Positions 95 through 29,254 of a stretch of 58,050 bases of DNA are shown here, piece after piece. Made by a program: the position numbers and the translations under genes. Origin of the DNA: Candidatus Poseidoniales archaeon (GTDB lineage Archaea > Thermoplasmatota > Poseidoniia > Poseidoniales > Poseidoniaceae). The stretch covers positions 1 to 58,050 of the forward strand of contig QQRY01000036.1 in assembly GCA_003602575.1 (NCBI GenBank), in the 5' to 3' direction. Positions within the stretch are counted from its first letter, which is position 1. The number at the start of each line of letters is the position of its first letter. Under the pieces are notes generated by a model. It was given only the letters and a program-made list of their open reading frames with translations, did not search any database and was not told the origin of the DNA.

Positions 95-1384
95 CTATTT
101 TATTGATAATTCGAAATCTCTTCGGATTCTTCTAAGTTTCGTTGTTGAAGGTTTGAATGAATATTTAGTCAAAGAAATACTAGGTTGAATCGTTTTCATT
201 TTCTCCCAAACTTGCTCGAATCCCTGTAAAGAAATATCTTCAAGACCTTCTGGGAGAAGTTGTATCTCAATTTCTTTAGGAGACTTCTGAATGGCACAAT
301 AAGCGGTTATATCCGGATGCATTTGCATTACTGCTCGTCTAATAAAATCTGGAATTACTTGCTCAAAGCCATCTCCAGATTTCTTTTCAAGCAGGAAAAT
401 ATCGTCTTGCCTTCCCATGATTGATTCAATAGATTCTCTTGCATCCCCGCACTTACATGGTTGTTTTGAAGTTACTAAAATATCATTTAATCTATATCGA
501 ATGATTGGTTGAGTTTTTCTCTTGAAATCTGAAATTATAGGATGATACCATCCTTTTTCTTTATCGACCCACTGCTTCTGAATTACCATTATTTCTTCAT
601 TCAAATGTAATGTTCCATATTCACAGGTAGCTGCGATTTCTCCCTCTGTAGATGAATAAAATTGGTGGACTATTTGACCAAAGTGCGCTTCTATATACGT
701 CCGATCTATATCATCTAAGACCTCAGCAGCAGATACTAATTTACGCACTTTAAGTGGAGATTTCACATCTGCTAAATATCTTAGAACACTAGGTGGGCCA
801 ATCAAGATATCTAATTCATCTTGTAAAATAGACTCATGAATTTCTTCTAAAGGCTTCATGAGGTCATAGAACTTGAATTCTATTCTGTTAGAACCCACCG
901 ATTCAAAGGTATTCGAATTTGCTCTTAGTATCAAACCAATTCTATGTTTTGAAAAAATAGAACCATCTAAGCCCCTAGCAAGCATAAAACCCGCCCAACC
1001 CGCTTGTTCTTTTTCACTAACAAAATGCATGCCTCTTGAACCGCTTGTTCCTGAAGAGTAACCTATCGAATAAGGTCCTATTTTTGGTGAAAAGTCTCTC
1101 GACTTTTCTGCATTGTCTGCTAATTTCCTTGCTTTGTCGACATCTAATCTAACAGTGAGTAAATCCTCTAAATTTTCCATCATTATCGATTTGTCAATCA
1201 ATGGAAATTCAGACCATTGCTCATCTTGTATGCCATCCCAATGACGCGCATAGAACGGTGAGTTTTTACGAACAAACTTGGCTTGCTTTCTCATTCCTTT
1301 CCTTTGTATCCGTTCTATTTGTTCACGAGATTTAAATTTCTTAGGAGTAAAGAAGTATCGAAACAGTGTGCTTAATTTACTCAT
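95..1384 (-). CDS. PaaK/CapK-like adenylate-forming enzyme
   Basis: This 429-residue protein resembles the phenylacetate-CoA ligase/CapK branch of adenylate-forming enzymes, which activate a carboxylate with ATP. The glycine/serine-rich nucleotide loop reads YSSGTSGSRG at residues 109-118. A second conserved segment, FYSSTEGE, lies mid-protein in the position of the family's aromatic-x-x-x-T-E motif. The C-terminal KLRRIRRDF stretch matches the basic end seen in CapK-like members. Length fits the family (about 430). There is no signal peptide or membrane span, so it is cytoplasmic. Its ATG overlaps the stop of the upstream SDR gene by four bases (ATGA), so the two are probably translationally coupled. 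It is last in a five-gene minus-strand set with a KAS III-like thiolase, its partner, a membrane protein and an SDR. By analogy with OleC it may activate a hydroxy-acid made by that pathway. The substrate is unknown. The fold call is fairly secure; the role is inference. Confidence 0.8.
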   Translation of the reverse strand: MSKLSTLFRYFFTPKKFKSREQIERIQRKGMRKQAKFVRKNSPFYARHWDGIQDEQWSEFPLIDKSIMMENLEDLLTVRLDVDKARKLADNAEKSRDFSPKIGPYSIGYSSGTSGSRGMHFVSEKEQAGWAGFMLARGLDGSIFSKHRIGLILRANSNTFESVGSNRIEFKFYDLMKPLEEIHESILQDELDILIGPPSVLRYLADVKSPLKVRKLVSAAEVLDDIDRTYIEAHFGQIVHQFYSSTEGEIAATCEYGTLHLNEEIMVIQKQWVDKEKGWYHPIISDFKRKTQPIIRYRLNDILVTSKQPCKCGDARESIESIMGRQDDIFLLEKKSGDGFEQVIPDFIRRAVMQMHPDITAYCAIQKSPKEIEIQLLPEGLEDISLQGFEQVWEKMKTIQPSISLTKYSFKPSTTKLRRIRRDFELSIK

Positions 1385-2349
1385 TCTAACTCCTCCATGC
1401 CTTGTTCAAAAGTCATTTTTGGAGTCCAACCCAATGCCTCTTCAGCCCCTGAAATATCCAAGACAAGAGATGTTGTAACCTGCCTTAACCCATAAGGAGT
1501 TATTCTTGGCTCCCACTTTTTACCTGGGATTAAATTAGCAATTACATTATTGAAATGTGCCAGTAAAAAAATAGGATAATATGGTATTTTCCGTTGCTTA
1601 AATGATGAAGAAAATTTTGAAGTATAAGTCTGCATTATCGAATTAAATGTTCTTGGATCACCGTTTGAAATATTATAGAACTTACCAAGACTATCTTTAG
1701 GAGCATTTATCGCTAAGCATACAGCATCAATAAAGTTAGATAAACAAGTCACGTCGATAAGATGCTCTCCAGTTCCTATTGTTTTGTAGTGATTCTTACC
1801 GATCAATTTCTTCAGCCTAGGGATTAGAGTTTGATCTCCTTTACCAAATACTGCACGTGGTCTTAGGCCAATCCATTTATCGCCAGGTTGGTTCAAACAA
1901 ACCAACTCTGCATCATATTTGCTTGCTCCATAACTATGCTTTGGCCTAAACTTTGAATCTGGAGTTTCATCAAGATGTGGTTTTTCATGTTTCATCCCAT
2001 CAAAAATTGATGCTGAAGATATCGCAATTACCCTTGATACACTAGAATTTTTTACAGCCTCAAATACATTCTTTGTACCTTGGACATTTGTCTCGAAAAA
2101 TTTCTTCTTACTGCCGAATGGGGCAGCAAATGCTGCACAATGGATTATTACATCACTGCCTTTGAAGCAATCGGTTAATGTTACTAGGTCGCCAATATCA
2201 CAACTCTTCATGTCAAAACCTTCATCGGTTAATGACTGAATTTTCGATTTGGAAAGTCCCAAACCGATGATAGAATGATTTTCTTCTTTTAGCCTATACA
2301 TTAGTGCAGTGCCCAAAGAACCAGTAGCTCCTGTAATGACTATCTTCAT
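1381..2349 (-). CDS. Extended SDR NAD(P)-dependent epimerase/dehydrogenase (OleD-like)
   Basis: A 322-residue extended short-chain dehydrogenase/reductase. The N-terminal Rossmann loop GATGSLG sits at residues 7-13. The active-site pair is Y140 and K144 in YGASK, with serines at about 111-112. Sequence flavour is closest to the 3-beta-hydroxysteroid dehydrogenase/NAD-epimerase group, which includes OleD, the reductase of bacterial olefin biosynthesis. Length is normal for that group. A moderately hydrophobic segment near residues 255-275 could be a membrane-associating helix. The gene starts 11 bases after the stop of the polytopic membrane protein and overlaps the adenylate-forming gene by ATGA. 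In context it probably reduces a 3-keto intermediate made by the thiolase-fold enzymes. An alternative is a sugar-nucleotide epimerase, but no glycosyltransferases are nearby. Confidence 0.85.
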   Translation of the reverse strand: MKIVITGATGSLGTALMYRLKEENHSIIGLGLSKSKIQSLTDEGFDMKSCDIGDLVTLTDCFKGSDVIIHCAAFAAPFGSKKKFFETNVQGTKNVFEAVKNSSVSRVIAISSASIFDGMKHEKPHLDETPDSKFRPKHSYGASKYDAELVCLNQPGDKWIGLRPRAVFGKGDQTLIPRLKKLIGKNHYKTIGTGEHLIDVTCLSNFIDAVCLAINAPKDSLGKFYNISNGDPRTFNSIMQTYTSKFSSSFKQRKIPYYPIFLLAHFNNVIANLIPGKKWEPRITPYGLRQVTTSLVLDISGAEEALGWTPKMTFEQGMEELE

Positions 2350-2360
2350 TATTTCACCTC

Positions 2361-3983
2361 CTAAGATATCTTATGGGAAATATTTCTCCAAATTAAAACC
2401 ATCATTGAGGGCCATGATAAAGCGATGAACCATGCTAACCAAACTGGTAATAGTGGAGGACTTGCAACATCTACTGGGATCACTGTAAAGTCTGGTTCGC
2501 CATTCTTCTCAAGCCATATCTCCATAGTTTGGTTACCTGAAAAAGGGAAATTAATTTGTCCATTCCAAATTGCAATGTCGTTTTTTGTTTCCATATCAGT
2601 TCTCATTCGAACTTCTCCTTTCTCATTTGGATAAACAACTTCAATCCAAATTTCATCTATTTCCATAGTTTCATTTTCAGCAGGCAGAATTACAACTTCT
2701 GTCTCAGATGCTGCTTTTGGTGGCCATATCATGAATTCAACCCAAACAAATGTGTCATCAATATCGATTAAATAGCGCTTAGGTGCATCAAAACCTTCTC
2801 CTTCTTCTGAGAAATGAATCGTGTGCCCACTAACCACTGGTAAAAAGAATATCATCAATACAATACCAACAACAGATAACTTGGGTTTTGAAGACTTTGA
2901 CTTTTTCAAAGATATTTTCTTATTCAAAGATAATCTTTCAATCGAATCACCAAACCCAAGACTCAAAGTGTAAAATATTCTTAAAATTGCTATACTTATG
3001 ACAATTGAAACTAAAGTATTGAAAATTCCTACTTCTTGAGGAATATAATCAATAAAGGTTGGTAGCCAAATGACATCGACTAAAATCACCATTGCAATTA
3101 ACCTATTTGGGTTTTCTAACACAGAAAATTTTCTAGTAAAAATCAAGACTGGAAAGAGAAGCCAAGGTAAACAATTTGCAGCCCAAGTTGTATGAGGTGA
3201 ACCTGGTCGATAAAAATGCTCAGAGGTCATGAAAATAGATACCAGAAATGGGACTAGTACTAAGAATAGTAATTGAGAACCAAATAATAATCCTGTAAGG
3301 GAAATTGCACCATTTTTACCAAGCCACCTGTCCGCTAAAGGAAGAAAAATAATCAATGTCGCGCCGGCAAAGATGATGTGTAATATTATATCTAAACCTA
3401 GAATTTCTAGTGTCCAAACTCTCGGATCTAAGAAGTTGGCAAAGGCCAAATGAAAATGGTAAACCAATGCCCAAAGTGTTCCGAGAATTATCAAATTAAG
3501 CCATTTTGGTGTATTATCTTGAAGCCTCTCTTTCATCTGAAGAGCTAATACAATTGTTGCAATTTCTACCAACATACCGCCAGCAAAGGTCCATATGTGG
3601 GGCGGAGTAATTATCGTGGTATCTACTCCATAACTGGTGTGCCATAAATCATCATATAGTCCACCTACTACAAGAGTTAGTAAACCACAAACCATCATCC
3701 AAAGGCTTGTTGGTGCGATAAATGGTCCAATATTGAATCCAACCTTATCCTCTTGTTTTGAAATAAAACTATACCAAAAAATGTAAGATGTAAGCATTAT
3801 ACTTGTAGGTACTATGCCTGCAAGAATCATAATATGTGGGGGCGTGAATAACTTATCTCTTCCAACATCTGTATGCCACTGTAAATCAACTGCTAAGCCA
3901 AATCTTGCAATGATATGGTATAAGCATAAAACAATTAGAAAAAGTAATAGAAAGTTATCTTCTTTACTTCTTTGAAATTTCAT
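2361..3983 (-). CDS. Polytopic membrane protein with duplicated W-H/PPH motif
   Basis: I do not recognise a named family. The ATG at 3983 is preferred over an upstream in-frame start because it lies two bases after the previous stop and avoids an overlap of about 50 bases; this gives 540 residues. About ten hydrophobic helices fill residues 10-350. A last pair brackets an extracytoplasmic beta-type domain (about 395-510), and a final helix ends near 535. An internal duplication is visible: W36-H37 followed by PPH at 48-50, and W114-H115 followed by PPH at 127-129, each then reading into I-x-x-x-AG. Further membrane-proximal His lie at about 196-198, 276 and 284. Paired His in or near helices suggest metal or heme binding, but this is inference. 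It sits inside the thiolase/SDR/ligase operon, so it may modify or export the product. Confidence 0.7.
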   Translation of the reverse strand: MKFQRSKEDNFLLLFLIVLCLYHIIARFGLAVDLQWHTDVGRDKLFTPPHIMILAGIVPTSIMLTSYIFWYSFISKQEDKVGFNIGPFIAPTSLWMMVCGLLTLVVGGLYDDLWHTSYGVDTTIITPPHIWTFAGGMLVEIATIVLALQMKERLQDNTPKWLNLIILGTLWALVYHFHLAFANFLDPRVWTLEILGLDIILHIIFAGATLIIFLPLADRWLGKNGAISLTGLLFGSQLLFLVLVPFLVSIFMTSEHFYRPGSPHTTWAANCLPWLLFPVLIFTRKFSVLENPNRLIAMVILVDVIWLPTFIDYIPQEVGIFNTLVSIVISIAILRIFYTLSLGFGDSIERLSLNKKISLKKSKSSKPKLSVVGIVLMIFFLPVVSGHTIHFSEEGEGFDAPKRYLIDIDDTFVWVEFMIWPPKAASETEVVILPAENETMEIDEIWIEVVYPNEKGEVRMRTDMETKNDIAIWNGQINFPFSGNQTMEIWLEKNGEPDFTVIPVDVASPPLLPVWLAWFIALSWPSMMVLIWRNISHKIS

Positions 3984-3985
3984 TT

Positions 3986-4699
3986 TCAAAACTCCCACTT
4001 GGCCGTTGTAGACTTGCCTGAGCGGTCTACTATACAATGTTCAAGTGTATCATTCTGTCCATCTATTCTTTGTAAAAATTCGTGCATATGCTTGCCGGAT
4101 AACCATTCGCTATCTCCTGAAAAATAATTATTCCTAGATTCTTTTTCTCGTTCTTCAATATTTCCAACCTTTTCAAATTTATTTGCTTTTATTTTATCAT
4201 CAAAATAACCGGTTGTTGTAAAATTTACATTAAAGTTAGAATTATCATAATCTACTGAAATTAGTTTAATTCCATCTCCCGATAGCCCAATTACTGCTAC
4301 TACGCAGTATGACTCATAATCCCATTCACAATGCTTTGTTGGCCTATCATCACCTATGCATAAAAGGGCAAATTTATTTGTTAATGATGGCAATAAATCT
4401 GCTATTGCCTGTAATGCAACATGTGGGCTACAACTTCCATCGGTTACATCAAATGAAAAGCATGTCTGACTATCAAAACTTATGTTAGTGCAGTGTATAT
4501 CTAAACCGCCGTGTATATGAGTTGCAAAAGCGGGTTCCGTCCTGAAATGTTCTCTAAATACGCCTCCATGGACGATTAAACCGATATCTTCCTGGCTGAT
4601 TTTTGCCTTTTTTATCGCTTTTTTGGCTAGTTTCAATGTTGATTTGAACAGATTATTATAACCTATTTTGGTACTTTCCCATGAGAGCATTACGACCAT
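3986..4699 (-). CDS. Truncated thiolase-fold partner lacking catalytic Cys
   Basis: A 237-residue protein whose first half aligns by eye to the KAS III-like protein encoded just upstream. Both have a helix ending in a K/A-rich stretch, then an FDV strand leading to the nucleophile elbow. The neighbour has FDVSNAC there; this protein has FDVTDGSC, so Ser89 occupies the nucleophile position and Cys90 is shifted by one. The C-terminal half has no recognisable catalytic His or Asn motif and is about 100 residues shorter than a full ketosynthase. It is therefore probably not an active condensing enzyme on its own. Inactive ketosynthase partners are known, such as chain length factors and PqsB. The start overlaps the upstream thiolase stop by about 10 bases, which suggests coupled expression and a heterodimer. 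It is not a frameshift remnant, because the neighbouring thiolase is complete. Confidence 0.65.
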   Translation of the reverse strand: MVVMLSWESTKIGYNNLFKSTLKLAKKAIKKAKISQEDIGLIVHGGVFREHFRTEPAFATHIHGGLDIHCTNISFDSQTCFSFDVTDGSCSPHVALQAIADLLPSLTNKFALLCIGDDRPTKHCEWDYESYCVVAVIGLSGDGIKLISVDYDNSNFNVNFTTTGYFDDKIKANKFEKVGNIEEREKESRNNYFSGDSEWLSGKHMHEFLQRIDGQNDTLEHCIVDRSGKSTTAKWEF

Positions 4700-5739
4700 T
4701 TTTCCACCCCCTCTGGGAGATTAAAATGAATAGCTACCATTGCAAGTCCAGAACCAAAAGAAACCATGAATACTGTTTCATCGGAATTCAAATATTTGTT
4801 ATCATGTGAAATTTCTAATAATACCCCATGGGTTGTTGATGCAGTATTAGCTGTTTCAGCACTATCATTGTGTAAGAAATTTATTTCTCCTAAAGCATCA
4901 GTTGCTATTTTTGCTCCCTTTTTGACCGCTTTAGGAGTTGTCGGGTGAGAGTAAGTATGATCGATTTTGTCCCATTCAATACCCATTTTCTTGATTGAAC
5001 GTTGTAAAAAAATCCCTAAATTATCCAAAACTCCATTTTGTAAATCTCTAGCCTTAGTTCTCATTTGAGGGCCTCGATGATTTTTACATGCTTGACCGAT
5101 GCAAAGTCTATTGTGTTGGGCTAGAGTAAATGGTTCACTAAATTTAATTCTCCCCTCCTGTTCGGTCGGCCCTAAAATATAGGCTGCAGCGCCATCTCCG
5201 ACAGTTAGAGAAGCTATTGCTCTAGGATGAAGATAGAGATTTCTTCTTTTTGCCTCATCAATAATTGGAGTAATATGCTCTCCTGAAACGATTAATGCAT
5301 ATTCTGCCTGTCCACTTCTAATTCTAGATTCGGCAATCATAAGAGAAGTCACCATACTTGCACAAGCATTAGAAACATCAAAGCATTGAGCATTATTAAT
5401 TTCAAGTTTATCAGCAATAAGTGAGGCATAACTTGGAGATAAATGTTGACTTAATTCATGGTTCATTTTACTGACTGAAGCATTTATCACCAAATCAATG
5501 GAAGCAGGTTCTAATTGTGCTCTTGAAATTGCTTTTTTAGCCGCCTCTATGGCCAATTCAAAACTACCTTGTTGTTCAGATACCTCATGATGTGCTAATA
5601 TGCCTGTTAGTCTAATGAAATCTAACGACCTAGGTAAATCGCTAGGGGCTGCAAATGAGGTTGTATCAACCTTTTTTTCTGGCAAATAACCTGCGAATGA
5701 AACCATTTGAGCATGGCGACTGTCTTTCGACATGGACAT
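4690..5739 (-). CDS. KAS III/OleA-like thiolase-fold condensing enzyme
   Basis: A 349-residue enzyme of the 3-oxoacyl-ACP synthase III/OleA/HMG-CoA synthase superfamily. The catalytic triad is visible: Cys126 in NACASM, His265 in YSHPTTP and Asn298 in ETANTAS. A glycine-rich VGDGAAAYILG segment (about 180-190) and the C-terminal SFGSGLAMVA strand are typical of the fold. Length is normal. It probably condenses two acyl thioesters or an acyl with malonyl units. It is first in the minus-strand set with a degenerate partner, a His-rich membrane protein, an SDR and an adenylate-forming enzyme. Archaea generally lack type II fatty acid synthesis, so an Ole-like or polyketide-like role is more plausible than FabH. 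It does not look like the archaeal mevalonate-pathway HMG-CoA synthase, because no thiolase or DUF35 partner gene adjoins it. Confidence 0.82.
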   Translation of the reverse strand: MSMSKDSRHAQMVSFAGYLPEKKVDTTSFAAPSDLPRSLDFIRLTGILAHHEVSEQQGSFELAIEAAKKAISRAQLEPASIDLVINASVSKMNHELSQHLSPSYASLIADKLEINNAQCFDVSNACASMVTSLMIAESRIRSGQAEYALIVSGEHITPIIDEAKRRNLYLHPRAIASLTVGDGAAAYILGPTEQEGRIKFSEPFTLAQHNRLCIGQACKNHRGPQMRTKARDLQNGVLDNLGIFLQRSIKKMGIEWDKIDHTYSHPTTPKAVKKGAKIATDALGEINFLHNDSAETANTASTTHGVLLEISHDNKYLNSDETVFMVSFGSGLAMVAIHFNLPEGVEKWS

Positions 5740-5852: not shown

Positions 5853-6620
5853 ATGATTACTAGCATTATCATGGATGTGATGTTGATCATTATTAGCATG
5901 GTCATTACATTGATTGCTGCTGCATTAACCGTACCAGCTGGGTTTGGTCTTGCAACTATGCTTACTCCTGTCGTACTATTATGGCTACCACCTCATGAAG
6001 CAATTGCAGTTGTAGCGATTATTCATGGAGCTCACAATGCTTGGAAATTGAAAGTTTTACGTTCTAGTATCAATATTGATGCAGTAAAACGATATGGTTG
6101 GGCGCTGATTTTAGGAGCCATAATAGGTTCACTATTACAATCAAAAATACCATCCAACCCTCTACTTTTGGTTGTTGGAATAGCATTGATTATCCTACCA
6201 CTTTTATCGGTGACAGAAAAATGGACTAAACTTAGACTTGGGGAAACCGAGGATAGAATTGGCGGATTTGGTTCAGGCTTTTTTGGTGGCTTAACAGGAC
6301 ACCAGGGTGCTTTAAGAGCATTATTTTTACAAAAAAGACTACCTGATAAGATGGCCTATGCTGCCACTGCAAGTATTCTAGCATTGGTTGTTGATTTAAC
6401 TAGAATTCCAATTTACATATACTTTGAAGGCCGAGGAATAATGGATGAATATATTTTGATTATCGCCTTGGTTTTTGCAGCAATAATGGGAGTACAACTC
6501 GGTAAAAAGTGGCTATTATCTTGGAAGGAATCTTGGATAAGAACTGGGATATTAATAGCCATAGTTGGTAGCGGATTCATGTATATGTATGAAGCATCTA
6601 AGGGTCTTGGATGGATCTAA
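5853..6620 (+). CDS. TauE/SafE (TSUP) family permease
   Basis: A 255-residue membrane protein with about eight hydrophobic helices. The pattern matches the TauE/SafE sulfite-exporter family. An N-terminal helix carries VPAGFGLATMLTPVVLLW, followed by PPHEAIAVVAI. A second-half repeat contains GGFGSGFFGGLTGHQGA near residues 138-155, typical of the family's duplicated glycine-rich motif. Members move small anions such as sulfite, sulfoacetate or other organosulfonates across the membrane; the substrate here is unknown. Alternative Met codons lie at residues 7 and 10. It stands alone on the plus strand, divergent from the thiolase cluster and convergent with the lectin-domain gene, with two bases between them. 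Confidence 0.85.
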   Translation: MITSIIMDVMLIIISMVITLIAAALTVPAGFGLATMLTPVVLLWLPPHEAIAVVAIIHGAHNAWKLKVLRSSINIDAVKRYGWALILGAIIGSLLQSKIPSNPLLLVVGIALIILPLLSVTEKWTKLRLGETEDRIGGFGSGFFGGLTGHQGALRALFLQKRLPDKMAYAATASILALVVDLTRIPIYIYFEGRGIMDEYILIIALVFAAIMGVQLGKKWLLSWKESWIRTGILIAIVGSGFMYMYEASKGLGWI

Positions 6621-6622
6621 AA

Positions 6623-9145
6623 TCATACTGAATCCCAAAAGTTATCTTTCTTTTCTTTAACAGACTGTTTTAATGCTGACTGTATTTTCTTGGCTGACTG
6701 TATTGATTTTTCCTTTGGCAATTGATATACTGCGGGGCCTCTCCAACCCTCACCAACATCGTTCCACAATTTATTTTGGCCGTTTAGGTGTATTCTGTTC
6801 TCGTTACCTCCGTGGTTGTTGGGCTCGCCTGGAGCCCAGTTCGCATATATCCAAGGTTGACCGTCACACCAACACCAGTGGTCAGCACCGGGGCCATTGC
6901 CTGAGCCTTTCCTCATTCCACCAATCCATACGGTTCTTGCACCAGCGATTCGAGCGACCAGTTCGTTTTCCTCTGCGCTGGTAATTGAAACAAGGTAGCC
7001 TCCCATCGCTAGAGCACGGTCACTGTGCTCATTCCAAGACAACTCATCTGGTGCTAATTCGTAGCGCCCATCGGCGGGGTGTAATTGAGCGGCATTGCCA
7101 TGAGCCCCAGTAATGTCAAAATCTAATCGATCAATCTGATTATAGCCACCATCTGAAAAGACTCTGATACTCCATCTACCTGCTGGTTGTGGAGGTAAAT
7201 ACAGAGTTTTTTGTTGCGCTACATCTCGGAAATACATCCATTTGTGGTTCATTTCTCCATGCTCTTGGTCAGTCGCCCGGTCAGGATACAAACCAAACCA
7301 AGCTTCGTTACCGCTTGGCCGGTTATTCACATTGAAGCGAATTGGCTTACTCGTAGTCGCTTCTAAGATTTGGATTTCACAAGTGTGGCTCTGAGGCATG
7401 CCATCGCGTGAGGTGGATGTTTTGGGGTGTTGGGGGCTACTAGAAATCTCGAAATCCACGCGATGCTGGAGTTTGTATCCGCCGTCCTTGAAGACACGGA
7501 TACTCCACTTACCTGCGGTTTGACCTGGCAACGTAGCGTTATTCACATCAATATCTCTCAGCCAACTCCATCTATCGCCGTGGTCTTGATCACCAGCGCT
7601 AGGAGGATAGATGCCTACCCATGCATCTCCTCCCTTCGGAGGGTCATTTAGTTTGAAGCGCACCGGTTGACCTGGATTTGATTCAATAATCTCAATGGCC
7701 TCTTTTTCCTCTTCAATAGTAGGCATAATTCCGGCCCTTTCTGCTGCTTTGGATTTGGAAATTTTTACTATAATTATGATTGAGAGTGTCGCTCCACCAA
7801 GACCCGCCAGAACAGCTCCAACAATTGTCAAAGCAGTAGATTCTTGGATTTTTTCGCCATCTTGTATCCACATCCCAACAGGTGTTCTTGCTTCCGATTC
7901 AGATTCTGGTGCATATTCCGCAGTGATTGTTGTATTCCCTACCATACAACCATAACATGCTCTTCCAATTTTTACCAGTTGAGTATTGTTCTGCCATTTT
8001 TCTTTCGGCCAGTGTTGTGTATTGCAACCACTATCTCTCTGAGAAATTTCAAGTTCGAATACTTGCCTTGTTTCATCCGCCTCATTATAGTGGGAAGTCA
8101 TTACTTGCCAAGGTTCACTCATCCAGGCTCCCGAATGATTAGCATTAACGATTATATTTTCACAATAATCATGGATTCCATTTCCGTTGAAATCACCAGG
8201 CGTTGCTTTAATGAAAATAATGAATCCTTGGTCACCTAAGCCGTCTTCATCAATGATTTCTAGAGTATAACTAGAACTCCCTTCCCCTTCAATGAACTCT
8301 TCTGCCATTCCGCCACCAATTATTAGCAATACTATCCCTGGAATTAAAATGATTACAGCAAAAATTGCGGCAAATATAAATCCACGCCCTAACGATGGTT
8401 TCGGGGTTATTTCATTCCCACTCAAATCGTAAATAGGCTCAGTGGTGGAACTAGACTGGGATTCTTCAAGTACCTCTTGGGTTGGCATGAAACCGACTTT
8501 ATCTGCATGTTCTGCTTCTACGGTTAAATCATAATTATATTCTCGGTTGAAAAATTTCTTGAAAAAATTACTAATAACCAAAATCGGTGGAAGTCCGCCC
8601 AGCCAAATCAATCCAAATCCAAAGGGGAAAATTTTCCACCAATTTGTAGACCATTCACCCCATGGCAATAATGTCCATGCGTATGGTAAACATATTAGAA
8701 ATAATAATCCCCAAATAATTGAAGGATTTATTAAGAATAATAATCCCCATATTTCGTCTTTCCACTTTTTCGTTACATCCTTATTTCGATATGATAATAT
8801 CAAAGCAGAGAAGACTAATGGCCCAACCGCAATTCCGGTTACTAAACTACCGAGTAAAGACCACCAGACCCCGCCAGACCCTACAAGACGTTCACATGAT
8901 TCATACTCAGTAACTACACACTGAGAACCATCGGAATTCTCAGTGACAACTTGCCATCCTACCTCTGAAATTGCAAAATAAAATTCCTCCCAAAACCAAA
9001 GAATATTAAATACGAAGATATTTAGAAATAACCAAATTATCCCAAAACTAAACCAAAGTAAAATACTTCTATTTCTAAAACTCAAATCTTCAAGGGAGGC
9101 TTGATACTTACCGTAGTCAACATAACTACTGGTTTCACTTCCCAT
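6623..9145 (-). CDS. Polytopic membrane protein with two beta repeats and a C-type-lectin-like domain
   Basis: An 840-residue modular protein. Residues 25-210 hold about five hydrophobic spans. A sixth span at about 265-290 leads into a Cys-containing extracytoplasmic region, and a further span lies at about 438-463. Two tandem homologous repeats (about 483-568 and 589-675) share the pattern W-V/F-G-I/L-Y-P ... D-x-x-H-G ... AG-W-SIRVF-DGGY ... DF-I. The C-terminus (about 690-810) is a C-type-lectin-like domain with W-x-G, WAPGEPNN near 770 and WND near 794. The EPN and ND residues correspond to the Ca2+/mannose-type ligands in animal lectins. By the positive-inside rule (KISKSK after the last span), the repeats and lectin domain are predicted to be cytoplasmic, which is odd. 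The family call for the lectin domain is good; the carbohydrate role is inferred. Confidence 0.75.
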   Translation of the reverse strand: MGSETSSYVDYGKYQASLEDLSFRNRSILLWFSFGIIWLFLNIFVFNILWFWEEFYFAISEVGWQVVTENSDGSQCVVTEYESCERLVGSGGVWWSLLGSLVTGIAVGPLVFSALILSYRNKDVTKKWKDEIWGLLFLINPSIIWGLLFLICLPYAWTLLPWGEWSTNWWKIFPFGFGLIWLGGLPPILVISNFFKKFFNREYNYDLTVEAEHADKVGFMPTQEVLEESQSSSTTEPIYDLSGNEITPKPSLGRGFIFAAIFAVIILIPGIVLLIIGGGMAEEFIEGEGSSSYTLEIIDEDGLGDQGFIIFIKATPGDFNGNGIHDYCENIIVNANHSGAWMSEPWQVMTSHYNEADETRQVFELEISQRDSGCNTQHWPKEKWQNNTQLVKIGRACYGCMVGNTTITAEYAPESESEARTPVGMWIQDGEKIQESTALTIVGAVLAGLGGATLSIIIIVKISKSKAAERAGIMPTIEEEKEAIEIIESNPGQPVRFKLNDPPKGGDAWVGIYPPSAGDQDHGDRWSWLRDIDVNNATLPGQTAGKWSIRVFKDGGYKLQHRVDFEISSSPQHPKTSTSRDGMPQSHTCEIQILEATTSKPIRFNVNNRPSGNEAWFGLYPDRATDQEHGEMNHKWMYFRDVAQQKTLYLPPQPAGRWSIRVFSDGGYNQIDRLDFDITGAHGNAAQLHPADGRYELAPDELSWNEHSDRALAMGGYLVSITSAEENELVARIAGARTVWIGGMRKGSGNGPGADHWCWCDGQPWIYANWAPGEPNNHGGNENRIHLNGQNKLWNDVGEGWRGPAVYQLPKEKSIQSAKKIQSALKQSVKEKKDNFWDSV

Positions 9146-26602: not shown

Positions 26603-28105
26603 TCACTCCTGCCCCGGGACATATGTTCCCGCAGGCTTGTCTGTATACACATGGAACATACGTTCCGTGTTTCCACTCTTATCTTCGTCATTTAGCATCA
26701 GGAAGAATATCCCTAGCCATATGACTGTAGTAATTGCTGGAATCAAGAATGGAATCCCTAGAGCGTCCCATGATGTACCTCCATAGGTTCCATCATCCAT
26801 TGCTGAAGGGTCGAATAGATACAATCGGTAAACTGCTGAAAGGATAAGTTGGAAGACTGCCAATGGCAACAAGATTCGCCAACCAAATTCAAGGATTTGG
26901 TCTGTTCTTATTCTCGCTAGAGAGAATCTAGCCCAAACGAATACTAGTAGGAATACCAACCAAGACTTGAGTAGAACTACTACAGCGCCAGGAATCAAAA
27001 GATATAGATCGCCAAGAACAGGTATTGAACCAATTAGGCCTTGGAATGGCAAATGCCATCCGCCAAGGAAGAAGTGAGTAAAGAGGAAACATGCTGCATA
27101 TGTTCTGATATATTCAGCCATGAACAACATCCCGAACCTCATTCCTCCATATTCTGTCCACCAACCTTCGACAAGTTCAGCTTCTGCTTCAGGCATATCG
27201 AAAGGAACACGTTCTACCTCAGCAATCATAGTTAAAAGGAATAATCCGGCACCAAGAGGCATCAGGAAAAGATTCCATGCGCCTGCAGAATGTTGGAAGT
27301 GTACGCTATCGATTATATTGAATGTCCCCGAGAGAACTGCGACCGAAAGCAGGGTGAGTAAAAGAGGTATCTCGTAAGCTGTTAATTGTGCAGCAGAGCG
27401 TATACCTCCAATTAGAGTATACTTGTTATTAGAAGACCATCCGGCAAAGAAAACTCCTATTGGGGCAATACCAAATATTGCAATCGCATACAGAATTGAG
27501 AGTTCTGGATTGGTTGCATAAATCCCGCTAGAAAGAGGAATTATTCCAAGAATTAGTAGAGTAGAAGATACGATGAGGAAAGGTGAGACTTCAAAAATTA
27601 ATTTATCTGCTCTTTGAGGCACCATGTGCTCTTTTAGCAAGAATTTCATCCCGTCAGCAACGTTTTGGAAGAACCCTGGGAAAATGGAGTATCCCATCCA
27701 AGACCTGTTGTTCACTCTATCAACAGTTGCAAACTTCTCATCCCTATTACCGAACTTCTTATTCAACCATTTATTGACTGCGCCCACGGGTTTGCCAAGT
27801 CCAAATGGCAACATATTCCACCACTCTCCAGCGGTGACTCCGTTTTCTCCAACCCAAAGTGAACGAAGAGCGGTCGTTGCCCCTCTTCTATCATTCATTC
27901 TTGCAACTGCTTTTCTCTCAATCCAAAGAATTGCGAATTGTGAGAAAAATAGCATTAGAAATACGATGTTTACTACTGCAAAAGTCGCTAAACCAAATGC
28001 GATTTGCCCTGTACTTTCTTCAAGCGGAGTGCCTTCAAGAAGTGGAGGTATTACCTTATCGACAAGGTCGAAAATTAATCCTCGTAAGTCATATGCATCA
28101 TCCAT
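26603..28105 (-). CDS. nuoH: Complex I subunit H (NuoH/FpoH)
   Basis: A 500-residue membrane subunit that links the quinone site to the proton channels. Eight or nine hydrophobic helices are visible. The hallmark cytoplasmic loop MIAEVERVPFDMPEAEAELV is followed by EGWWTEYGGMRFGMLFMAEY, with its conserved Glu cluster. It is longer than bacterial NuoH (about 325-350), with extra N-terminal sequence and a loop of about 60 residues around 95-145. TGAGGTGATATCATG joins the nuoD stop, ribosome-binding site and start. Confidence 0.95.
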   Translation of the reverse strand: MDDAYDLRGLIFDLVDKVIPPLLEGTPLEESTGQIAFGLATFAVVNIVFLMLFFSQFAILWIERKAVARMNDRRGATTALRSLWVGENGVTAGEWWNMLPFGLGKPVGAVNKWLNKKFGNRDEKFATVDRVNNRSWMGYSIFPGFFQNVADGMKFLLKEHMVPQRADKLIFEVSPFLIVSSTLLILGIIPLSSGIYATNPELSILYAIAIFGIAPIGVFFAGWSSNNKYTLIGGIRSAAQLTAYEIPLLLTLLSVAVLSGTFNIIDSVHFQHSAGAWNLFLMPLGAGLFLLTMIAEVERVPFDMPEAEAELVEGWWTEYGGMRFGMLFMAEYIRTYAACFLFTHFFLGGWHLPFQGLIGSIPVLGDLYLLIPGAVVVLLKSWLVFLLVFVWARFSLARIRTDQILEFGWRILLPLAVFQLILSAVYRLYLFDPSAMDDGTYGGTSWDALGIPFLIPAITTVIWLGIFFLMLNDEDKSGNTERMFHVYTDKPAGTYVPGQE

Positions 28106-28114
28106 GATATCACC

Positions 28115-29254
28115 TCAACGATCTGTCTCCCCGATACATGGGTCAAAACTACCCATGATTGCCGGTATATCTGCAACCTTATATCCAATCATTGTCTTTG
28201 CAACGAATGGAATTGTGATAAACATAGGTGAACGAATGGAAAGTCTGTAAGGGTTCTTTCCCCTGCCGTCTCCTCCACCTTGGATGTAAAATTGTGAAGC
28301 ACCTCTAGTGCATTCATAATTGCTAAACCCGCTAGCGCCTTCTGGGGCTCTTGTAGGTGCTTTTTGGTAAATCATCTCGTCCCCATTAGCGTAATTTGTA
28401 TTCTTTCCACCAGGGATTTTTTCGATTGCATCCAAGACCATTCTACAGGATTGACGCATCTCTTCCATCCTTACACGATAACGATCATAGCAGTCTGCAC
28501 CTTTGACTGAAGTTGGCTTTTCTACTGCTGGCTCCCAGTCTACTTCATCATATACTGAATAAGGATGTGCCCATCGTACATCGTAATTGACTCCAGCTGC
28601 ACGGACGTTAGGGCCCGAAACTCCTGCTTCAACCATTTCTTCGGCATTAGCATAGCCCACACCTTGTAGCCTAACCAGCCAAATTGTTGATTCGTCTAGC
28701 ATCATCTCATATTCATCAATTCTACGTTCGAATAATTTTACTTTAGCAATCATTCTATCGGCAAATCCGATTGGAATGTCTCGCTTAACACCGCCAATTC
28801 TTGGATAATTGTAATGCATTCTAGAGCCACCTAGTTCTTGCAGTAAATCGAGGAACATTTCACGATCACGCATACACCAAGTCATCAAAGTTAGGTTACC
28901 AATATCCGGTCCAAAGGCACCAAGCCACATCAAGTGAGAGGCAAGCCTTTGTAATTCAGCTGAAATTAAACGGATATATTCTGCTCTTTCTGGTACTTCG
29001 GCTTCCAAAAGATCTTCTGCAGCATAGATGTATGAATTAGCCCAAGTCATGGCACTAACATAACAAAGCCTGTCGCAATATGGAGTGACTTGAGTGAAAT
29101 CTCTCGATTCACATATTTTTTCTACACCACGGTGAATATATCCAAGTTCGGCCTCGGTATCGACTACTGTTTCTCCGTCCACTTTCACTCTAAGAGTCCA
29201 CAGCCCGTGAGTCATCGGGTGCTGAGGCCCCATTGTAATCCACATTTGTGCCAT
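28115..29254 (-). CDS. nuoD: Complex I 49-kDa subunit D (NuoD/FpoD)
   Basis: A 379-residue peripheral-arm subunit related to the large subunit of [NiFe] hydrogenases. The start has MGPQHPMTHGLWTL (family GPQHPxxHG), followed by ELGYIHRGVEKICE. The C-terminal end reads GSFDPCIGETDR, matching the family's G-S-x-D-x-x-x-GExDR terminus. Length is normal. Together with NuoB it forms the quinone-binding pocket. The gene is separate from nuoC. GTGAGGCGAT precedes the ATG. Confidence 0.96.
   Translation of the reverse strand: MAQMWITMGPQHPMTHGLWTLRVKVDGETVVDTEAELGYIHRGVEKICESRDFTQVTPYCDRLCYVSAMTWANSYIYAAEDLLEAEVPERAEYIRLISAELQRLASHLMWLGAFGPDIGNLTLMTWCMRDREMFLDLLQELGGSRMHYNYPRIGGVKRDIPIGFADRMIAKVKLFERRIDEYEMMLDESTIWLVRLQGVGYANAEEMVEAGVSGPNVRAAGVNYDVRWAHPYSVYDEVDWEPAVEKPTSVKGADCYDRYRVRMEEMRQSCRMVLDAIEKIPGGKNTNYANGDEMIYQKAPTRAPEGASGFSNYECTRGASQFYIQGGGDGRGKNPYRLSIRSPMFITIPFVAKTMIGYKVADIPAIMGSFDPCIGETDR

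Follow-up and report, generated by a model that had tools for sequence, protein, structure and literature searches.

A putative LstAB/Ole-type lipid-biosynthesis operon with a PmoC-like membrane protein in marine group II archaea

Bacteria make the drug precursor lipstatin with a condensing heterodimer, LstA/LstB. OleA and LstB both lend a glutamate to the active site of their partner. The E60A variant of LstB is inactive (PMC12141560). A survey of ole clusters, which combined the pattern EPxx[AS]x(14,18)DxxNACL with the presence of OleBC/OleD neighbours, reported no ole cluster in Archaea (PMC7158056), and clusters devoid of oleB have been linked to beta-lactones (PMC7064751). The stretch of DNA discussed here, referred to as the window, is the 58,050-nucleotide contig QQRY01000036.1 of a Candidatus Poseidoniales archaeon (assembly GCA_003602575.1), in which positions 95 to 5739 hold an operon of five tightly packed open reading frames (ORFs) for a condensing enzyme (KS), a short partner, a membrane protein (MEM), a short-chain dehydrogenase/reductase (SDR) and an adenylating enzyme, or ligase. 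With confidence slightly better than even, this appears to be a lipid-biosynthesis operon of the LstAB/Ole type in which MEM would oxidise the chain; judged from their sequences, the two condensing proteins resemble LstA and LstB and not the one-chain OleA.

The operon and its condensing pair

The features of the operon, in gene order, are the following.

4690..5739, minus strand: KS, an LstA-like condensing enzyme of the KAS-III/thiolase fold, 349 aa, assigned by its FabH and PRK09258 scores, catalytic triad and LstA-like BLAST matches
3986..4699, minus strand: partner, LstB-like, a shrunken thiolase fold without the catalytic Cys, 237 aa, assigned by hhalign, alignment with OleA and a structural model
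2361..3983, minus strand: MEM, a polytopic membrane protein in which a PmoC/AmoC-like N-terminal part is fused to a domain of copper-binding type, 540 aa
3540..3971, minus strand: MEM residues 5-148, the part aligned with C subunits of copper membrane monooxygenases (CuMMOs) by hhalign and ligand spacing
2466..2780, minus strand: MEM residues about 402-506, a beta-sandwich resembling Helicobacter pylori CrdA by Foldseek, the range being taken from the strands of the model
1381..2349, minus strand: SDR, resembling OleD/LstD-type 2-alkyl-3-oxoalkanoate reductases by its NF042422 match, 322 aa
95..1384, minus strand: adenylate-forming enzyme of TIGR02304, 'F390 synthetase-related', 429 aa, 407 bits against a cut-off of 251.9

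The ORF coordinates bear out the initial annotation of this DNA, which had described five minus-strand genes with overlaps or gaps of 0-11 bases: KS and the partner overlap by 10 bases and SDR and the ligase by 4, while gaps of 2 and 11 bases separate the partner from MEM and MEM from SDR. The best start for MEM is the ATG at 3983, which gives the 540 aa, with an alternative TTG upstream at 4037.

KS possesses the nucleophile Cys126 (codon 5362-5364), His265 and Asn298, a triad kept in all 15 aligned KS copies. The position of the catalytic Cys is occupied in the 24 distinct partners by Ser (23) or Ile (1), in keeping with the active thiolase-fold enzyme and inactive short partner that had been annotated initially. 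The FRxEP motif, including its Glu, is kept in 24 of 24 partners, and in the window Glu55-Pro56 (Glu55 codon 4535-4537) aligns with OleA Glu117-Pro and with the position of LstB Glu60. Alignment of the partner with six LstB-like proteins by hhalign, run with no shuffle control, gave a probability of 98.6 and an E-value of 6e-16, with Glu55 placed on the LstB-like Glu. In a search of the PDB with the partner profile, OleA was matched first (E 3.2e-6), with Aquifex FabH next to it (3.8e-6). The AF2 model presents a shrunken KAS-III fold (pLDDT 83.7), for which the Foldseek top 50 consists of thiolase-fold enzymes, mostly KAS-III (TMq 0.6-0.7) and including OleA and PqsBC chains.

With regard to bacterial relatives, the nearest kin in plasmid searches were Rhodococcus KSa-KSb pairs, with no ligase in the stretch fetched. 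Next came operons of the order A-B-ligase-SDR-NRPS-formyltransferase in Streptomyces and Rhodococcus (L153, L154, L156 and L157; NRPS, non-ribosomal peptide synthetase), which we take from operon content to be lipstatin-type. In S. globosus, an LstA-like/LstB-like pair is followed by AMP-binding, SDR and NRPS genes, the stretch ending in the NRPS gene; the Cys of A is residue 128 and the Glu of B residue 60, matching the published LstA C128 and LstB E60 (PMC12141560). The archaeal operon shares with LstA/LstB adjacent A and B homologues, an active KAS-III with Cys/His/Asn ahead of a shorter partner devoid of Cys, the EP glutamate and the GVYR motif in B, as well as SDR and adenylating-enzyme genes within one operon. 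It differs in the length of the partner, which has 237 aa and a reduced C-terminal half as against 283-302 aa in these four loci, in the lack of NRPS and formyltransferase genes, in the family of the ligase, in the additional PmoC-like membrane protein and in the loss from most archaeal KS of the Glu kept by LstA-like proteins. As a side observation, two Rhodococcus plasmids (L151 and L155) carry an LstA/LstB-like pair near universal stress proteins, L155 also having wax-ester/triacylglycerol synthases.

The fate of this Glu separates the window from a single-chain OleA. At the corresponding position, 11 of the 15 KS have Ser and 4 have Glu; the window KS shows Ser-Pro and NACA instead of Glu-Pro and NACL, so that the OleA signature (Glu117-Pro with NACL) is absent from it. 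In the branch that includes the window, then, only the partner carries the Glu, which is what one would expect were it to supply the base. The survey pattern cited above misses 15 of the 16 archaeal KS tested and matches only that of a sister-genus locus (L116); the survey required a single chain to carry both the Glu and the Cys motif, next to OleBC/OleD neighbours, a combination that the window operon does not offer.

Against NCBIfam, KS reaches 129 bits on FabH, 117 on PRK09258, which we take to be the OleA-containing family, and 47 and 26 on the HMG-CoA synthase (HMGS) models, none of them above cut-off, and its profile matches FabH structures first (8e-32) and OleA after (1e-24). This order would suit a FabH-like decarboxylative step, in which KS would use a malonyl unit to produce a beta-keto acid, a short polyketide or a signal molecule, and so would the KS of a bacterial operon with a TIGR02304 ligase (see below), which group with E. 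coli FabH and are devoid of the OleA Glu. Such a step is nonetheless unlikely, given that pairwise BLAST of KS favours six LstA-like proteins (E 3e-31 to 7e-53) over E. coli FabH (1e-18), that the LstB/OleA Glu is kept in every partner, and that the archaeal KS lie outside the FabH group in a tree of 34 rows that included LstA. In that second tree the archaeal KS form one clade (99/98), apart from the group of FabH and the bacterial TIGR02304-operon KS (92/92); their position relative to LstA is not fixed, and long branches were flagged. In a first tree, built without LstA rows, the archaeal KS joined a Rhodococcus KSa (92/92). The bacterial TIGR02304-operon KS were also considered as nearest kin and rejected, as the LstA-like proteins are closer.

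The identification of KS as an archaeal HMG-CoA synthase, with an isoprenoid-related cluster, draws on the two weak HMGS matches and is largely contradicted, to the point of deserving almost no credence. It was rejected because the HMGS cut-offs are missed by far, and on the archaeal model TIGR00748 (cut-off 353) KS scores 21-26 bits, while a 528-aa ORF elsewhere in the genome scores 71. This ORF forms a very long branch, so the trees say little on the question; the low model scores agree with the initial expectation that the thiolase would not group firmly with HMGS.

Reductase, ligase and a related bacterial operon

The best NCBIfam match of the SDR, which displays a YGASK motif by eye, is the OleD model NF042422, at 153 bits and under its cut-off of 580. 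The ligase, by its TIGR02304 score, belongs to a family other than OleC, as had been noted initially; on PF00501 it obtains 11.4 bits (cut-off 29.9). The operon resembles OleABCD in its OleA-type glutamate, in an adenylating enzyme and in a reductase that may be of the OleD type, and differs from it in that, in the window, the Glu resides in a separate subunit, TIGR02304 takes the place of OleC and OleB is missing: no alpha/beta-hydrolase match was found among the five genes, the rest of the genome not having been searched for OleB. An olefin or ketone pathway, in which decarboxylation of the product would yield a hydrocarbon or ketone of long chain length, would account for the OleA-class Glu in the partner and the OleD-type reductase; it is improbable in view of the ligase, which is not OleC, and of the missing OleB-like gene, clusters of that kind being the ones tied to beta-lactones (PMC7064751). 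A hydrocarbon, one of the products proposed initially, is for the same lack of an OleB-like gene no longer the first guess.

A bacterial operon combines the same SDR and TIGR02304 families, with the SDR ahead of the ligase. The ligase matched 56 plasmid records, and six loci among them (L105-L110) were read, from Paenibacillus, Pontibacillus, E. coli, Paracoccus, Ketogulonicigenium and Pseudomonas. All six have the order KS-SDR-MBL-TIGR02304 (MBL, metallo-beta-lactamase), two of them with an ATP-grasp gene after KS. The archaeal ligase is 32-42% identical to the six members, and the archaeal SDR scores 124-174 bits against the SDR of this operon, as compared with 82-102 bits against LstD. Furthermore, an ATP-grasp gene lies by KS in the archaeal loci L116, L034 and L036, 28-31% identical to two Bacillales members. 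The bacterial operon has an MBL protein and no partner, where the archaea have the partner and MEM, and its KS is without the OleA Glu (6 of 6) and best matched by PRK07204 (3 of 3 scanned). From the families found, the archaeal operon thus amounts to an LstAB-type pair joined to the reductase and ligase of the bacterial operon, with MEM in place of MBL. The two MBL proteins scanned resemble, below cut-off, an AHL (acyl-homoserine lactone) lactonase and pyridoxolactonase, which would fit lactone chemistry without demonstrating it.

In the E. coli plasmid, the operon copy lies with PAP2, fatty-acid hydroxylase and acyl-CoA desaturase genes. No paper with 'F390 synthetase-related' was found in the open-licence literature, and the bacterial TIGR02304 operon is undescribed among the matches listed.

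The membrane protein and copper monooxygenases

In PmoC, the CuC site is formed by Asp156-His160-His173 (PMC7584546) and the CuD site by Asn227-His231-His245 (PMC12576850), and divergent CuMMOs are known from other Thermoplasmata, in operons of the order C-A-X-B (PMC9038741). MEM presents D33-H37-H50 with the spacing of CuC and D111-H115-H129 with that of CuD; D-x3-H-x12-H precedes [ND]-x3-H-x13-H, as in the C subunits PmoC, AmoC and HmoC, and the surroundings of the ligands are similar (HmoC DATWHQILTRDTAFTPSH, MEM DLQWHTDVGRDKLFTPPH). Both motifs are found in 32 of 32 MEM rows, which represent 23 distinct proteins. Alignment by hhalign of residues 5-148 with seven bacterial C subunits covered 136 columns at E 7e-6 and a probability of 84.5, and with one HmoC it gave E 5.7e-5 and 65.8. 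As controls, the best of 150 column shuffles reached E 0.02, the best of 150 local shuffles 0.005 and the reversed alignment 0.19. The Pfam model PF04896 (AmoC) matches residues 19-72 at 15.2 bits (E 0.009, cut-off 26.7), and MEM is its sole match in the genome at E <= 10.

MEM thus reads, at the level of sequence, as a distant and minimal relative of CuMMO C subunits, and it is probably a copper oxygenase. The extra membrane protein of the initial annotation is present, although it is not merely His-rich and has the look of a copper protein of the PmoC type; the plain label 'His-rich protein' was set aside when the resemblance to AmoC, which had begun as a weak match in Pfam, held against the shuffles. 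MEM differs from the C subunits in being longer, in its fusion to a CrdA-like domain and in its location inside a biosynthetic operon. That C-terminal domain matches CrdA (9ll2_A) in Foldseek at E 1.2e-3, with a probability of 1.00 and a TMt of 0.70 over 108 columns. A PDB search with the MEM profile yielded 0 matches at E <= 10, and no match was obtained in a phage search with HmoC.

CrdA and YtkA-like proteins take part in copper trafficking, and the main rival for MEM is a role in copper handling: the pair would still be LstAB-like, MEM would be a copper transporter, chaperone or sensor, and the product would be a copper-handling or copper-regulated lipid. We hold this to be possible, if doubtful. 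It would explain the CrdA-like domain, the weak YtkA-like neighbour of an unfused relative and the fact that the operon offers MEM no CuMMO A or B partner, and it is opposed by the alignment of the N-terminal part with CuMMO C subunits, with both ligand sets in place. A search of the genome for CopD yielded nothing even at E <= 10, and a CopD-type copper transporter was set aside for that reason.

Unfused relatives of MEM occur elsewhere. An archaeal one (L117, genome G103) has both motifs as D-x3-H-x12/13-H, matches no Pfam family and is followed by a weakly YtkA-like gene (18.8 bits, cut-off 25.9). Another, in Rubrobacter marinus (L149), has both motifs by eye; its reading frame is apparently shifted and begins ahead of the gene as annotated.

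Distribution, proposed pathway and significance

The source metagenome-assembled genome (MAG) measures 1.97 Mb and is 87% complete. A KS match at E <= 1e-90 was found in 18 of 59 genomes searched, its own included, that is in 18 of 35 of the same genus and in 0 of 24 of another family. In the other 17 same-genus genomes the partner always comes directly after KS (with the set split over two contigs in G034), and MEM follows in 16, the exception being G007, where the contig ends inside the partner. SDR and the ligase come next, at least in part, in 11; in four the contig ends before them and in two (G032 and G017) they are absent despite the contig continuing, so that all five genes are present, at least in part, in 11 of 13 genomes that can be judged. 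Named loci fetched with the ligase tell the same story, 15 of 21 carrying at least part of all five genes in order and the other six starting inside the gene set at a contig end; at least 9 of these 21 are contigs already in the same-genus count, and the two counts are therefore not independent. The conserved order and co-occurrence anticipated by the initial annotation are thus observed in both. The sister-genus locus L116 has the ATP-grasp gene and all five operon genes. The named relatives carry the labels Candidatus Poseidoniaceae, Poseidoniales or Euryarchaeota, which places them in the marine group II (MGII) archaea. Among 389 genomes of the phylum, MEM is matched below E 1e-200 in 9, all of the same family, with 3 weak matches outside it, and TIGR02304 is above cut-off in 12, of which 9 belong to the same family; the stretches fetched from the 3 others contained none of the other four genes.

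Several copies depart from the full set. The loci L034 and L036 have ATP-grasp-KS-partner-MEM as a reduced set, with neither SDR nor TIGR02304, and in L034 a 252-aa protein matching no Pfam family comes next. Interrupted gene copies in L028, L032, L039 and L051 coincide with runs of N, and the KS break in L052, where there is no N, points to a frameshift in that record. One further KS (L037, G012:C31) sits on a contig with type IX secretion-like and outer-membrane-like proteins by eye, probably a bacterial contamination of that MAG. Scans of viral contigs with KS and with MEM revealed no relative.

In the proposed pathway, KS would carry an acyl chain on Cys126 and the partner would pack against it as LstB does, forming a putative heterodimer in which Glu55 would act as the base that deprotonates a second acyl-CoA. 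The two chains would join head to head without decarboxylation into a 2-alkyl-3-keto acid, the SDR would reduce the keto group to give a 3-hydroxy acid, and the TIGR02304 enzyme would adenylate the latter, leading either to a beta-lactone by an OleC-like closure or to transfer to CoA or another acceptor. MEM, as a single-chain CuMMO C relative, would oxidise the chain in the membrane by copper-dependent hydroxylation or desaturation. Tentatively, MGII archaea of the ocean surface may in this way make a branched 3-hydroxy-acid or beta-lactone lipid with a split LstAB-type enzyme, finished by a single-chain PmoC-like copper monooxygenase.

A number of observations weigh against this pathway. Glu-Pro is present in KS itself in the 4 of 15 copies mentioned, in the L116 KS and in all six LstA-like proteins, so that not every system has to draw the Glu from its partner. 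Since the bacterial operon KS are devoid of this Glu, OleA chemistry does not follow from the presence of an SDR and a ligase of these families. In G032 and G017 the genes for ATP-grasp, KS, partner and MEM are retained in this order, with no SDR after MEM and no TIGR02304 enzyme found in either genome (77-79% complete), which indicates that the last steps of the pathway are not fixed. As to MEM, the hhalign probability is only 84.5, the Asn of CuD is replaced by Asp, PmoC is missing from the Foldseek top 50, the structural model is of low confidence around the loops that hold the ligands, and there is no CuMMO A or B among the five genes (A and B were not searched genome-wide), nor a Monooxygenase_B match in the 15 MEM scanned. 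MEM is above cut-off on no Pfam family, with AmoC under cut-off in 2 of 15 members (best E 0.01) and DUF373 in 6 (best E 0.0045). AmoC is, in addition, matched at E <= 0.05 in 19 of 389 phylum genomes, about ten of these matches being to proteins other than MEM and none over cut-off. Weak AmoC matches alone are consequently not specific, and MEM was assigned by comparing profiles and by the spacing of its ligands, not by Pfam.

The broad chemistry of the initial annotation holds and its detail does not: an Ole-like condensation stands at the level of the enzyme class, with Glu55-Pro56 and OleD as the best SDR match, while the system is more exactly LstAB-like, a pair instead of a single OleA.

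With regard to the surroundings, one divergently oriented neighbour lies near the operon in many loci, though not in all, and is probably not part of it.

5853..6620, plus strand: TauE/SafE-type membrane protein (PF01925, E 2.6e-21)

Further along, the window encodes an 840-aa membrane protein whose C-terminal part is C-type lectin domain-like by eye (6623-9145) and NADH dehydrogenase (complex I) genes of the NuoH and NuoD types (26603-29254). Outside the window, the same archaeon has a 2944-aa ORF (L158:5841-14675, G000:C49) with two KS stretches, an acyltransferase, three acyl carrier protein stretches, a ketoreductase and a dehydratase. It is a large polyketide or fatty acid synthase and a possible source of long acyl chains, presumably similar to polyunsaturated fatty acid (PUFA) synthases; the PUFA-synthase term was found in none of the literature matches listed.

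In ocean surface waters, MGII are described as the most abundant archaea of the plankton; they reportedly break down fatty acids and carry genes for membranes of mixed type, and a heat-map legend names an alkane 1-monooxygenase (PMC6461757). Among the open-licence matches listed (titles and starts of abstracts), no LstAB, Ole or PmoC-like protein is reported in Poseidoniales. If the proposed pathway is true, MGII would be able to join acyl chains head to head, despite the survey that reported no ole cluster in Archaea. The pathway would also make a member of the CuMMO superfamily, that of methane and ammonia oxidation, act in biosynthesis without A and B subunits. A minimal PmoC-like protein encoded by one gene, with both ligand sets and with neither an A nor a B subunit beside it, would offer an uncomplicated system in which to address the dispute over which copper site of particulate methane monooxygenase does the chemistry. 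Were MEM only to handle copper, the finding would still be an archaeal LstAB-type operon.

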